This document shows positions 29,408 to 35,423 of a stretch of DNA of 64,000 nt, in pieces. Origin of the DNA: Candidatus Ornithomonoglobus merdipullorum (lineage in GTDB: Bacteria > Bacillota > Clostridia > UBA1381); contig DVNB01000083.1 of the NCBI GenBank assembly GCA_018714695.1, positions 1 to 64,000 of the forward strand, read 5' to 3'. A program made the position numbers and the translations under genes. The notes under the pieces were generated by a model. The model saw only the letters and a program-made list of their open reading frames with translations. It was not told the DNA's origin and made no database searches. How positions within the stretch are numbered: the first letter of the stretch is position 1; every line of letters starts with the position of its first letter.

Positions 29408-30679
29408 ATGACGCAGGAAGAATTGATAAACGTTTTAATAGTATTTTCGCATACCTTTCTTGGGGCGTATGTAATGATGTTTACAGAGTTCCGTGAACCC
29501 CGGCGTGTATGGAGACTGCGTTGGGCTGTGACGGCAGAGCTTGATATAGCGGCGAATGGATTGCTGTGTGCTGTCATAGGCAGGGATATATGGATGTACT
29601 GCGCGGTATTCACGCTGACCATACCAATCATTATTATTACTGTTTTCTGTTCTCTGCATAAAGGTCTGCGTGTAGTATTCAGTGTATGTACTTGTCTTTG
29701 GGTAGGATGTGTGGCGTTTTCGTGTTCGGAGACAGCATATTGGCTTTCAGGAGGCAATTTATGGATCAGGCTTGCGGTTCACGTAGCGGCATATGTGGCA
29801 CTGTATTTTGTCCTGTGCCGTTTCCGTCCGTATTATAAAAGGATGGTGCGCCTGCTTGATCACGGATGGAGCGTTCTGTGTATGATCCCGACTGTTACCT
29901 TTTTAGTTGCCTTGTATATAATAAATTTCCTGTTGACAGAAAAAACGATGATATCAGTCATTGCGATATGTGGCATAACGATCATCTGTACCTGTGCATA
30001 TAGTCTTATCTATTTGTTTTTTGTCAAGGTGTTGGATGACTATGAGCTGAAAACCAGCAGTGATCTTGCCGAAGTAAGACGTTTTGCGCTTGAGCGCCAG
30101 CTTGAAGAAACCAGAGAGGCTGAGAATCTGATGCGTGTACAGCGCCGTGATATGAGCTGTCGCTGGATGATGCTTTCGAGTTTTGTGGAAAAAAATGATA
30201 CTAGTGCGATAGCAGAGCTTATCGGCGGGGCACAAAAGAAGCTTGATGAATCCGTATCGGTGGTTTGGTGTAAAAATCAGATGCTGAATGCAACTGTAGC
30301 TGCTTATTTTACAAAGGCAAAACGTGAGGGAATAACCGTTGAAGCAAAATTAGATATTCCTGACGATATACCGGTAGATGCGGCAGAATTATCGATGGTG
30401 TTTGCGAACGCCCTTGAAAATGCAATTAATGCCTGTACACTGCTGCCGCCGGGAAAGCGTAAGATCATATGTAAATGTGTAGAATATCCTAGGTTTATGC
30501 TGAAGGTGGAGAACACTTACAACGGTAAAGTGAGGTTTGGCAGTGACGGGCTGCCGCTGTCTTCGGAAGACGGGCATGGCATCGGAACACGTTCAATAGC
30601 GGCGTTTTGTAAAAAATACGATGCCTCATGGAGCTATGATGCTTCGGACGGGTGGTTTACATTGAGAATAGCGTTTTAA
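29408..30679 (+). CDS. GHKL sensor kinase-like membrane protein with degenerate H-box (His to Arg)
   Basis: Multi-TM N-terminus, MRVQRRDMSCRW, ATPase region NALENAINAC and GHGIGTRSI. Confidence 0.8.
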   Translation: MTQEELINVLIVFSHTFLGAYVMMFTEFREPRRVWRLRWAVTAELDIAANGLLCAVIGRDIWMYCAVFTLTIPIIIITVFCSLHKGLRVVFSVCTCLWVGCVAFSCSETAYWLSGGNLWIRLAVHVAAYVALYFVLCRFRPYYKRMVRLLDHGWSVLCMIPTVTFLVALYIINFLLTEKTMISVIAICGITIICTCAYSLIYLFFVKVLDDYELKTSSDLAEVRRFALERQLEETREAENLMRVQRRDMSCRWMMLSSFVEKNDTSAIAELIGGAQKKLDESVSVVWCKNQMLNATVAAYFTKAKREGITVEAKLDIPDDIPVDAAELSMVFANALENAINACTLLPPGKRKIICKCVEYPRFMLKVENTYNGKVRFGSDGLPLSSEDGHGIGTRSIAAFCKKYDASWSYDASDGWFTLRIAF

Positions 30680-30762
30680 CTTATATTTTGGCTGCTCCAT
30701 CATGGTCCGTTCGGTCTGACATCAGATGTACGGATATAAAAAGTGGATTTGAGGGAATTTAT

Positions 30763-31629
30763 ATGGTATACAATAATTATATGAATGCGCTGATGGTGCT
30801 TTTAACGCAGATGTTTCTCGGCAGTTATGTCTTGATGCTGACGGAGTTTAGGGAACCTGTGCGTATATGGAGATCTATTTGGACAGCTGTCATCGTTTCG
30901 GTGGTGTGCATAAATATTCTATTGATATTGTTTTTTGATTTTTTGGATATTTATAAACGAGTTGGGATATTGACGGTCACGCTTCCGTATGTTTTGATGA
31001 CCTTGCTGTGTTCACGCTATAAGGGGCTTCGGGTCGTATTTAATATATGCACATGCCTTTGGATCGGATGCATAGGGAATGCCAACGGTATAGCGGCTCA
31101 TGCACTGATGCCGGAAAATGTTTGGATAAATGTAGCAGCACGCAGTGCTTCATATTTTGTGCTGTATTTTGTGGTAAGATTTTTTAAACCGTATTACAGT
31201 CAAATGCTTCAGCTTTTGGATAAAGGGTGGGGCACATTATGCCTGATCCCTTTTACTACTTTTATATTGACTCTTTGCATGATAAATAATCTTCTTCAGG
31301 AGGAGCCTCTGGCTGCGTCTGTAATTATTTATGGGATCATGATATTATGCACATGCTCATACATTCTCATATATCTGTTCTTTATGAGGGTATTGCAGGA
31401 ATATGAGCTTAAAAACAGCCGTGAACTGATCAACGTTCAAATAGCAGCGCTTGAACGTCAGTCGGAATCAAATCGGGAGATCAATGAGAAAATGCGTATA
31501 CAGCGTCATGATATGCGCCATCAATGGATAACTGTATCAGCTTTGATAGAGAATGGCGACAAGCGGGCTGTATTGGAATTCATCGATACTGTGCAGAGAC
31601 AGCTCAATGGCATTGATCAGGAGCAATAA
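30763..31629 (+). CDS. Paralogous sensor kinase with intact H-box but no ATPase domain
   Basis: Multi-TM N-terminus paralogous to the preceding gene, QRHDMRHQW, stop after DTVQRQLNGIDQEQ. Confidence 0.8.
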   Translation: MVYNNYMNALMVLLTQMFLGSYVLMLTEFREPVRIWRSIWTAVIVSVVCINILLILFFDFLDIYKRVGILTVTLPYVLMTLLCSRYKGLRVVFNICTCLWIGCIGNANGIAAHALMPENVWINVAARSASYFVLYFVVRFFKPYYSQMLQLLDKGWGTLCLIPFTTFILTLCMINNLLQEEPLAASVIIYGIMILCTCSYILIYLFFMRVLQEYELKNSRELINVQIAALERQSESNREINEKMRIQRHDMRHQWITVSALIENGDKRAVLEFIDTVQRQLNGIDQEQ

Positions 31630-31781: not shown

Positions 31782-32507
31782 CTATTCTTCCATCCAATAA
31801 TCCATCCATTTGTTCAGAATATCATTTCGTGCGCCTTTTGGTATTGCCAATGATTTTTCATTGGTCAATATCAGCTCTTTTTTGCCTACCTTTTTTATAT
31901 AATGGAGATTGATCAGGAAGCTTGAGCCGAGCATAATGAAATTGTCTCTTTCAAGCAATTCACCGACCGCTTTTTGAAATGATATCCTAAGTTTCTGGCT
32001 GTCAACAACGGTTTCGTTTATCAGATTGTACCGTACAGACCGCTCGTAAAGCTCAGCGTAAAGGATATCGGATATGTTTATGACAACTGTGCCGTCGGAT
32101 GTATTTACGGTTATCGAATGTGCTTTAAGCCGCGCGGTAAGTATCTCCGCCTGTTTTATAGCCGAAAACAATTTTTCTTTTTCGACAGGCTTTACAAGAT
32201 AATGAAGAGCATGTACACTGTAGGATTCAACAGCGTAGTCTTTTGAGCTTGTAAGGTAGATAATGGGCGCGCAAACGTCCATGCCGCGAAGCTGCAGTCC
32301 AAGCTCTATTCCGGAAAGCTCAGGCATGATCACATCAAGTATGTAAAGATCGAATAGTTCTTTTCCGCTCCATTCGACACGGTCAAGCAGCATTTGGCTG
32401 TTTGTAAACACAGTTAAATTTACGTCAGTTTTGAAATACTCCAAAATATATTCCTTGATTTTGTCAATTTGATCGACGTCATCATCACATAAAGCAATTT
32501 TCAGCAT
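31782..32507 (-). CDS. LytTR-family (AgrA/LytR-like) response regulator
   Basis: Receiver domain CDDD, YILDVIMPELSGIEL, K in VKP; C-terminal LytTR DNA-binding region. Confidence 0.9.
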   Translation of the reverse strand: MLKIALCDDDVDQIDKIKEYILEYFKTDVNLTVFTNSQMLLDRVEWSGKELFDLYILDVIMPELSGIELGLQLRGMDVCAPIIYLTSSKDYAVESYSVHALHYLVKPVEKEKLFSAIKQAEILTARLKAHSITVNTSDGTVVINISDILYAELYERSVRYNLINETVVDSQKLRISFQKAVGELLERDNFIMLGSSFLINLHYIKKVGKKELILTNEKSLAIPKGARNDILNKWMDYWMEE

Positions 32508-32585: not shown

Positions 32586-32615
32586 TCGTCACAAAAAGAA
32601 CCTGAATTGTCACAA
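32586..32615 (+). promoter_or_regulatory. Candidate LytTR operator (9-bp direct repeats, 12-bp spacer)
   Basis: TCGTCACAA (32586-32594), 12 bp, TTGTCACAA (32607-32615), just upstream of TACAAT (32643-32648). Confidence 0.6.
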
Positions 32616-32735: not shown

Positions 32736-35423
32736 ATGAAATGGACAAAGTTTTTCAAGAATACAGTGAGTATCGCGGCAGCGGCGGCAGCGCTTTTTAC
32801 GGCAATTGCGCTCCCATCCCCGAACCGCGCTGCGGCTGCCGGGGAAGATCAGGTTTCAGATTTACCAACAAAGCTTATGAACGGTGATTTTGAATGGCCG
32901 AATATTGACACGGCGTTGGAGAAGGCTAGTATAGATGCAAACAGCAGCGGAACCACGAGCGGAACGTATCGCGGAACGTATCGCGATTATTCGATATCAA
33001 ATAATGATACCGAGGATACGGATATCATTTTCAGACGGCACCGCATTAGCTCGGGCGGGTGGTGGAATCCGACATATACCAATTATGATGATCCGTGGTT
33101 CGTGACCACGCGTTCTATATATGACGATATTTCTTCCGATCAATCCTCGGATCACGATAAACGCGAGTTTTACTGGAAGACTACCGCGTCAGATGACAGG
33201 ATAGAGCTTGCGGCGGCACGAGATATACGATCTTGGGATGGTGGTAGCACAGTAGGTTATTTCAGAGACGGGAACACTGAAACGAGGACGAATGAGGCGG
33301 CAAGCGGCGGTCAGTTCGCGGAGCTTGTGGCTACAGAACAGTCTTCGCTTTACCAGACCATACAGACTGCCGAGGACAATGTTCTCACATGGAGGCTTGA
33401 TCACCGTGCCAGAACCAGTACAGGAGGCATGGATTCCATGGCGGTGTTCATCGGTCCTAAACAGGACGGACTGAAAAAAGCGAGTGAGTCCGCGCAGGAT
33501 GTATTCAGCGCAATGGTCGATCTGATCAGAGAAAATCCCGGAGAGACAACGCAGCCGGGGATGTCGGTGGCGGCAAGAAAGATCTATTCGGCAAAAATAA
33601 GTGACGGTATGAAAATAACAGATGCCGATGTCAGCAATAATAAAACCGATCACTGCGATCAGGAATGGACCTGCTGGATAATAACGAGTGATGACATGTC
33701 GTGGCAGGAGTACAGCGGTACTTATAAAGTGCCGGAGGGACAGAACGCAACTACATTTGCTTTTGCGGCGCTTAACAGAGCTGCCGCCAATCCTGAAGGA
33801 AACTGTCTTGATAACATTGTGTTCGGAATACAGTATCCGCTTACTGTTACAGCAACAGCAGGCGGGACCGGCACCGTATCCGGCGGCGGCATTTCAAATG
33901 CTGAGGTCTCACACGGCAATGCGTATAACGGAAGCGCAAATGAGGGCGAAACCGTTACAATAACAGCGAGACCTAATGATGCTAATCACAAATTTGTCGG
34001 CGCGACGGTTAACGGCAATTATGTCAGGATAGGAGAAAACGGATTCGTTCAGCAGCAGGATGGTTCGTACACGTATCAGCTGACAATGGATGGAGCCAAA
34101 AATGTCGAGCTGATATTCGCCTCCGTTGGCTATGTCACATATGATCTTAACGGCGGAACCTGGGATAGCGATATCCAAACTTCATACGAACTGGATAGCT
34201 TGCTAAATAACGATTTTGAGCAGAAAAATGAGCCCGAACTGACGGGCAGTAGATTCCTTCACTGGGAGGTGTACGCGGCAAACGGCACGGACTCGTTAAA
34301 TGGTAAAGTATATACTCCCCATACAATAACGTATACGGTGGATGAGGGTGACTGGTGGAATCCATGGGATGATGATACGCATACGTTCACGATCACCGAC
34401 AGCAGCGGAGAAAAGGTTATTGAGATAGAAGACGGTGCTGACGAGTATGCGATAGTGCTTCGCGCGGTATATACTCACACTGTAGACGCCGTATCCTGCA
34501 CGAAATATTTCGCCTCAAACGATGCTAATCATAAAGATGCCACGGGAGGCTCGGTCACGATCAAAAAAAATACTGACACGACCTCAAATACCGATACGGG
34601 ATCTATATCGGTAGAAAACGGTGATTCATTCACGGTAACGGCAACGCCGAACGAAGGGTTTGAGGTTGATTCATGGTGGTATTCATATATTGATGACAAT
34701 GAAAACGAGGTGCTCGAGTTGATACCTGACGCTTCCGGCGATTCATACACAGCAACGTATAACGGGAGCCGAAATGTAACGATACATGCTCAGTTTGCGG
34801 AATTGCCCATAGGTCCGTATCTGTCTGTGGTAGCAGAGAACGAAGAGACACGGAAACAGCTTGATGAAAAGGGTATAGAGTCAGAGCATGGTCATGTTAA
34901 AGGAAACGGATCAGACACGCCTGTGAGTAAGCTTTACGGCGGTGAGAAATACGGCAATACGATCTCTACCGGATTTTTTGCAAAACGCAAGTTTGAAGGT
35001 GCCACTGTTGATCTCAGCGGTACATGGTCGATAAATATTCCTGCGAACGGGACATATTTCAAGATAGCTGTTGAAGATGTAAATAGTTATGAGCATATAA
35101 ATAAAACGCCCGTATTGGGTGATGATAAGGCGGAATACAACAGCGGCGCGATCTATAAAGCGGCTGATAATACAGAAAACAATTATAATAGGCAGGTGCA
35201 ATTCTACGTTGATGGTCCTACGGTCAGCGGAAATTCTGAGATCATCTTCGGGATAATAGTCGATAACCTTTACGCCCCGAATGCGCAGGCAGGTTTCAGG
35301 CTTGGAGATAATACAGCGGGACTTGGCGAGCTCAACGAGAGCAATTCAGTTACAGTGACCGAGCAAAATAAATATGATCCGACAGCGCTTGACAATTTGT
35401 CGGATACGCAAACTATAGACTAA
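32736..35423 (+). CDS. Large secreted protein with jelly-roll-like N-terminus and bacterial repeat domains
   Basis: Signal peptide, LMNGDFEWPN start, TVTATAGGTGTVSGGG / ETVTITARPNDANHKFVGATVNG repeat segments. Confidence 0.7.
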   Translation: MKWTKFFKNTVSIAAAAAALFTAIALPSPNRAAAAGEDQVSDLPTKLMNGDFEWPNIDTALEKASIDANSSGTTSGTYRGTYRDYSISNNDTEDTDIIFRRHRISSGGWWNPTYTNYDDPWFVTTRSIYDDISSDQSSDHDKREFYWKTTASDDRIELAAARDIRSWDGGSTVGYFRDGNTETRTNEAASGGQFAELVATEQSSLYQTIQTAEDNVLTWRLDHRARTSTGGMDSMAVFIGPKQDGLKKASESAQDVFSAMVDLIRENPGETTQPGMSVAARKIYSAKISDGMKITDADVSNNKTDHCDQEWTCWIITSDDMSWQEYSGTYKVPEGQNATTFAFAALNRAAANPEGNCLDNIVFGIQYPLTVTATAGGTGTVSGGGISNAEVSHGNAYNGSANEGETVTITARPNDANHKFVGATVNGNYVRIGENGFVQQQDGSYTYQLTMDGAKNVELIFASVGYVTYDLNGGTWDSDIQTSYELDSLLNNDFEQKNEPELTGSRFLHWEVYAANGTDSLNGKVYTPHTITYTVDEGDWWNPWDDDTHTFTITDSSGEKVIEIEDGADEYAIVLRAVYTHTVDAVSCTKYFASNDANHKDATGGSVTIKKNTDTTSNTDTGSISVENGDSFTVTATPNEGFEVDSWWYSYIDDNENEVLELIPDASGDSYTATYNGSRNVTIHAQFAELPIGPYLSVVAENEETRKQLDEKGIESEHGHVKGNGSDTPVSKLYGGEKYGNTISTGFFAKRKFEGATVDLSGTWSINIPANGTYFKIAVEDVNSYEHINKTPVLGDDKAEYNSGAIYKAADNTENNYNRQVQFYVDGPTVSGNSEIIFGIIVDNLYAPNAQAGFRLGDNTAGLGELNESNSVTVTEQNKYDPTALDNLSDTQTID

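Follow-up and report, generated by a model that had tools for sequence, protein, structure and literature searches.

Two adjacent genes in the 64,000-nucleotide stretch of DNA analyzed here (the window) encode paralogous membrane sensor proteins, K1 and K2, which probably form the halves of one obligate heterodimeric histidine kinase. Judging from the two sequences, the ATPase of K1 would act on His249 of K2, which in turn would serve a neighboring LytTR response regulator. The acceptor and the ATPase lie on separate proteins that are conserved together, and the pair resembles a natural version of the classic two-mutant trans-phosphorylation complementation test, fixed in evolution and with an apparent intermediate visible. 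If this reading is true, a homodimeric receptor kinase can turn into an obligate heterodimer via complementary losses.

Anatomy of the tandem kinases

The coordinates of the locus are collected in Table 1. The initial annotation described K1 as a kinase that keeps its GHKL ATPase and has arginine in place of the H-box histidine, and K2 as its paralog with an intact H-box and a stop before any ATPase domain; the reading frames, the codons, and the stop position all agreed with this description. The H-box of K1 is encoded by CAG CGC CGT GAT ATG AGC TGT CGC TGG and that of K2 by CAG CGT CAT GAT ATG CGC CAT CAA TGG. The second histidine of the motif is also gone from K1 (H+4, now Cys251), as is the glutamine at H+5, while K2 retains all three residues. 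The likely true start of K2 is 30763, as opposed to the first GTG of its reading frame at 30652.

Table 1. Features of the kinase locus, with positions in the window
Feature	Position	Strand	Description	Remarks
K1	29408..30679	+	Six-TM sensor, DHp with His-to-Arg H-box (Arg247), intact GHKL ATPase	423 aa
K1 degenerate H-box, V-QRRDMSCRW	30137..30166	+	Arg247 codon CGT at 30146-30148	G008 residues identical; G340 Arg identical
K1 ATPase (HATPase_c_5)	30380..30676	+	N box NALENAINAC, G box GHGIGTRSI	
K2	30763..31629	+	Six-TM sensor, complete two-helix DHp, intact QRHDMRHQW (His249), without ATPase	288 aa
LytTR response regulator	31782..32507	-	REC and LytTR DNA-binding domain	Convergent; probable cognate partner
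Probable (predicted) regulator binding site	32586..32615	+	TCGTCACAA-N12-TTGTCACAA direct repeat	21-bp period
Secreted protein	32736..35423	+	Weak InlB-repeat match	G008 ortholog at the same place; probable target gene

The Pfam profile search assigned residues 325-422 of K1 to HATPase_c_5 (E 5.6e-15) and gave no ATPase match in K2. Over about 276 residues that include the transmembrane (TM) region (K2 residues 7-282), the two proteins are 45% identical (E 6e-78). No ATPase remnant was present in any reading frame downstream of the K2 stop, nor did the rest of the window's assembly, which is about 86% complete, contain a displaced ATPase domain of the K2 type. The kinase family is held by six genomes (G000, which is the window's genome, G008, G042, G084, G127, and G340), and a search of six genomes with this ATPase domain as the query yielded from G000 only the copy in K1 and one remote kinase. 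The K1 ATPase is 68% identical to that of the single full-length kinase of G042. In about 30 other GHKL homologs from relatives the H-box histidine is present in every one, the K1 rows being the only ones without it.

In the AlphaFold models, each protein has a bundle of TM helices and a DHp of two helices. The DHp hairpin of K2 is complete, with helices at 182-263 (continuous with the last TM helix) and 267-284, and the chain ends directly after the second of these (mean pLDDT 77); the K1 model has in addition an alpha/beta ATPase fold at low confidence (mean pLDDT 65). Compared with Agr-type (HPK10) kinases, both K1 and K2 have a polytopic TM sensor that lacks a large extracellular domain, with six to seven N-terminal helices before or into the DHp (AlphaFold; the K1 model is of low confidence). 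HATPase_c_5 scores above the Pfam cut-off in K1 and the single kinases and not in K2, and the phospho-acceptor histidine of the H-box is present in K2 and the single kinases and replaced in K1. Neither protein alone is a complete Agr-type kinase, and the pair jointly has all of the parts. K2 also departs from the Spo0B plan of a SPOB_a hairpin followed by an inactive ATPase-like domain, its SPOB_a match (E 0.05) lying below the curated cut-off and the C-terminal domain being absent. A PDB sequence search with the K1 alignment returned no match, a Foldseek search with the model of K2 nothing meaningful, and NCBIfam no kinase family match.

Conservation of the pair and the state of its relatives

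The search for the same pair in related genomes, proposed in the initial annotation, located it in G008, another genome of the same genus, with the same arginine and the same stop. The lengths are equal in the two genomes (K1 423/423 aa, 79% identical; K2 288/288 aa, 81% identical), the H-boxes of G008 read QRRDMSCRW in K1 and QRHDMRHQW in K2, and a full K1 beside a truncated K2 was seen in these two genomes only. Since an independent genome has its K2 stop at exactly this position, a sequencing error was rejected as the cause. Between G000 and G008, pairwise Nei-Gojobori dN/dS was 0.18 (0.14-0.26) for K1, 0.25 (0.16-0.36) for K2, and 0.15 for the regulator, and 0.43 for the DHp segment of K2 alone, a loosely bounded value (0.21-1.0). 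Neither kinase gene contains indels or internal stops at about 20% protein divergence. Both genes are under purifying selection, and K2 was therefore rejected as a fresh or simple pseudogene.

The order K1, K2, convergent regulator, and secreted gene is kept in G008, and the genes upstream of the pair differ, being uxuA in the window and, in G008, a gene that by eye is quinolinate-synthase-like. When the K1s of G000 and G008 were compared with the residue common to the K2s and the single kinases, the differences clustered in the H-box (244, 247, 250, and 251), with further K1-specific columns just before it (224 and 225) and only three in the ATPase region. The codon of the K1 arginine varies synonymously, with CGT in G000 and G008 and CGG in G340.

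G042, G084 (L053), and G127 (L054), all more distant than G008, have one full-length kinase each with an intact H-box. A contig scan, which added L054 and found G042, G084, and G008 again, revealed no further pairs. G340, which belongs to another family of the class, carries the kinase twice in tandem. An ATPase follows the H-box QRRDMRRQW in the first copy; the second copy has QRHDMRHQW and extends beyond the point at which the K2 of the window stops, as far as the end of the contig. Another G340 contig starts with the remainder of an ATPase of this kinase family, 59% identical to that of G042; about 2.9 kb beyond it lies the ortholog of the regulator, oriented convergently. The G340 pair most likely consists of a K1 without the histidine and a full-length K2, the latter read from two contig ends (L127 1-291 and L101 1-897) that leave about 28 codons unseen. 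The glycine box of this K2 is altered (EIGVGVRSI versus GHGIGTRSI), which is perhaps the start of decay.

According to the initial annotation, a full-length second kinase in a relative would mark K2 as a simple pseudogene. A longer K2 does exist in G340, but the K1 beside it has already changed from His to Arg, and the purifying selection in G000 and G008 argues against a simple pseudogene. G340 is an apparent evolutionary intermediate or a parallel case. It may be parallel and not ancestral, because the tree does not unite its K1 with those of G000 and G008 in one clade; a single His-to-Arg origin shared with G340 was neither demonstrated nor rejected (AU p 0.18). A duplication private to G000 and G008 was disfavored (AU p 0.016, 0.032, and 0.028, with long branches present).

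The LytTR regulator and a conserved direct repeat

The gene convergent with the pair contains Response_reg (E 2.2e-15) and LytTR (E 2.1e-07) domains; as expected of a LytTR system, a REC and LytTR regulator is genetically linked to the kinase. Every one of the six genomes with this kinase family has an ortholog (60-85% identity). The order's other 91 genomes have none, their best match being 34% or less. The regulator adjoins the pair in G000 and G008, lies on the contig with the K2 end in G340, and is on a contig separate from the kinase in the single-kinase genomes.

A TTGTCACAA direct repeat with a period of 20-21 is found beside the kinase locus in six of six genomes. It lies between the regulator and the secreted gene in G000 and G008, directly after the kinase in G042, G084, and G127, and in two places in G340. 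The repeat of the window is the only genome-wide match in G000. Five loci gave 10 matches (both strands of some sites counted) against a shuffled-motif mean of 0.23 (maximum 4 of 200 trials), and in five loci a -10-like hexamer follows 26-27 bp downstream of the repeat (TACAAT at 27 bp in the window). LytTR sites consist of two repeats of 9-11 nt with spacers of 11-13 nt (PMC4847170), and the predicted sites at the six kinase loci fit this layout with 9-bp repeats and a spacer of 11-12 bp.

The repeat with its fixed spacing to the -10-like hexamer is a candidate regulon marker. The gene next to it in G042 and G084 encodes a permease-like membrane protein (named by eye). A second such repeat in G042 (L047 4498-4526, minus strand) lies upstream of an apparent fused amino-acid ABC transporter gene, which suggests that the regulon may cover transporters. 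In both G084 and G340 the regulator adjoins a similar substrate-binding lipoprotein (L090 3218-4360 and L127 1726-2499), with IMQMAPSDIF in both, which perhaps contributes to the input signal or is itself a target.

Proposed mechanism, rival explanations, and known systems

K1 and K2 would pair through their paralogous TM bundles and DHp helices. Since K1 is without an acceptor and K2 without an ATPase, the ATPase of K1 would phosphorylate His249 of K2 in trans. K2~P would in turn phosphorylate the neighboring LytTR regulator at Asp58; the surface for docking this regulator is expected in K2 only, together with the intact H-box. The regulator would bind the TTGTCACAA direct repeat and switch the neighboring secreted-protein gene and perhaps its own gene. 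Under trans chemistry, K2's own ATPase would face the His-less DHp of K1, and the ATPase of K1 would face the histidine of K2; under cis chemistry, the opposite domains would have had to survive, that is, the ATPase of K2 and not that of K1. The surviving set of domains fits trans-phosphorylation in a heterodimer, a geometry predicted here from sequence alone. AgrC itself works in trans. Among histidine kinases, trans autophosphorylation is common, not universal (PMC5956149).

The route to such a heterodimer would begin with the duplication of an ordinary single kinase, followed by loss of the acceptor histidine in K1 (the state of G340) and finally of the K2 ATPase, which would be useless in a heterodimer with a His-less partner. 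The DxxxQ following the histidine, which supports phosphatase activity in some other kinases, is kept in K2 alone. A K2 homodimer could be a phosphatase, in which case the K1:K2 ratio or the signals of the two sensors would set the output. A rather doubtful extension is that, in an obligate heterodimer which arose by complementary decay of tandem paralogs, the K1 histidine disappeared independently in G340 and in the lineage of G000 and G008, and that two separate sensor inputs set a switch between a K1:K2 kinase and a K2:K2 phosphatase.

It is unlikely that K1 is instead a regulatory pseudokinase, with an ATPase that responds to ATP or to conformation without phosphorylating K2, and that K2 is a module for phosphotransfer or phosphatase activity (Spo0B-like or DivL-like), the two tuning a LytTR regulator that receives its phosphate from another kinase or from acetyl phosphate. 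Such an arrangement would accommodate the Spo0B-type layout of K2 (a DHp without an active ATPase) with its weak, sub-threshold SPOB_a match, the other GHKL kinases in the window's genome, and the precedent of DivL, a His-less kinase turned regulator (PMC4211667). However, the ATPase boxes of K1 are as conserved as those of the single kinases, the single kinases have ordinary full-kinase anatomy together with orthologs of the same regulator, and a purely regulatory K1 leaves the loss of the K2 ATPase unexplained.

As a complete ATPase carrier in a genome with other GHKL kinases, K1 could also phosphorylate itself on a different residue or serve another DHp protein in trans, with K2 working separately with another ATPase. 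We consider this very improbable: the K1s have no alternative cytoplasmic histidine in common except that of the ATP box, the assembly, about 86% complete, is without a displaced K2-like ATPase fragment, and K2 is the obvious partner because it is adjacent and has a TM/DHp region 45% identical to that of K1. That both genes are being lost, K2 as a pseudogene in decay and K1 as a failing kinase, is scarcely credible even though each protein alone is without something essential and G340 has a longer K2, being largely refuted by equal lengths, uninterrupted frames, dN/dS of about 0.2 in both genes at such divergence, and retained synteny with the regulator and its site.

The split kinase that we favor, in which K1 acts on K2, shares with AgrC/AgrA-type quorum-sensing systems the six-TM sensor, the DHp with HATPase_c_5, and a LytTR regulator that binds direct repeats (here predicted). 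Unlike K1/K2, AgrC is one complete protein that works as a homodimer, and no AgrB/AgrD-like genes were noted in an informal look around K1/K2. Synechocystis Hik36/Hik43 with Rre6 has been described as a split histidine kinase, with bacterial two-hybrid interactions between kinases and regulator and a phenotype for each mutant (PMC7656254); in contrast to K1/K2, it is of the CheA/Pil type (Hpt in one protein, DIM and CA in the other), its genes are far apart, and its kinases are not paired paralogous membrane sensors. Mycobacterium tuberculosis HK1-HK2-TcrA (Rv0600c-Rv0601c-Rv0602c) is listed as a three-protein system (PMC8965865). Its kinase and regulator families differ from those of K1/K2. 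It reportedly has the ATPase on one kinase protein and the phospho-acceptor on the other, with the regulator adjacent, and HK1 and HK2 are said to be two halves of one kinase, not full-length paralogs with complementary decay. The literature outside most subscription journals yielded no description of a paralogous membrane pair whose lesions are complementary.

In the split kinase CheA3/CheA4 of Rhodobacter sphaeroides, neither protein autophosphorylates alone, the two together phosphorylate the regulator, and free CheA3 is the main phosphatase (PMC3591291). As in K1/K2, the acceptor is on one protein and the ATPase on the other. CheA3 and CheA4 are cytoplasmic CheA-type proteins with whole domains missing and are held in a chemotaxis cluster, whereas K1 and K2 are membrane Agr-type GHKL sensors with a point loss in an otherwise kept DHp, and probably pair via the DHp and TM regions. 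Being small and experimentally tractable, K1/K2 could serve as a system for examining the theory that splitting a kinase makes its output switch-like (PMC3591291).
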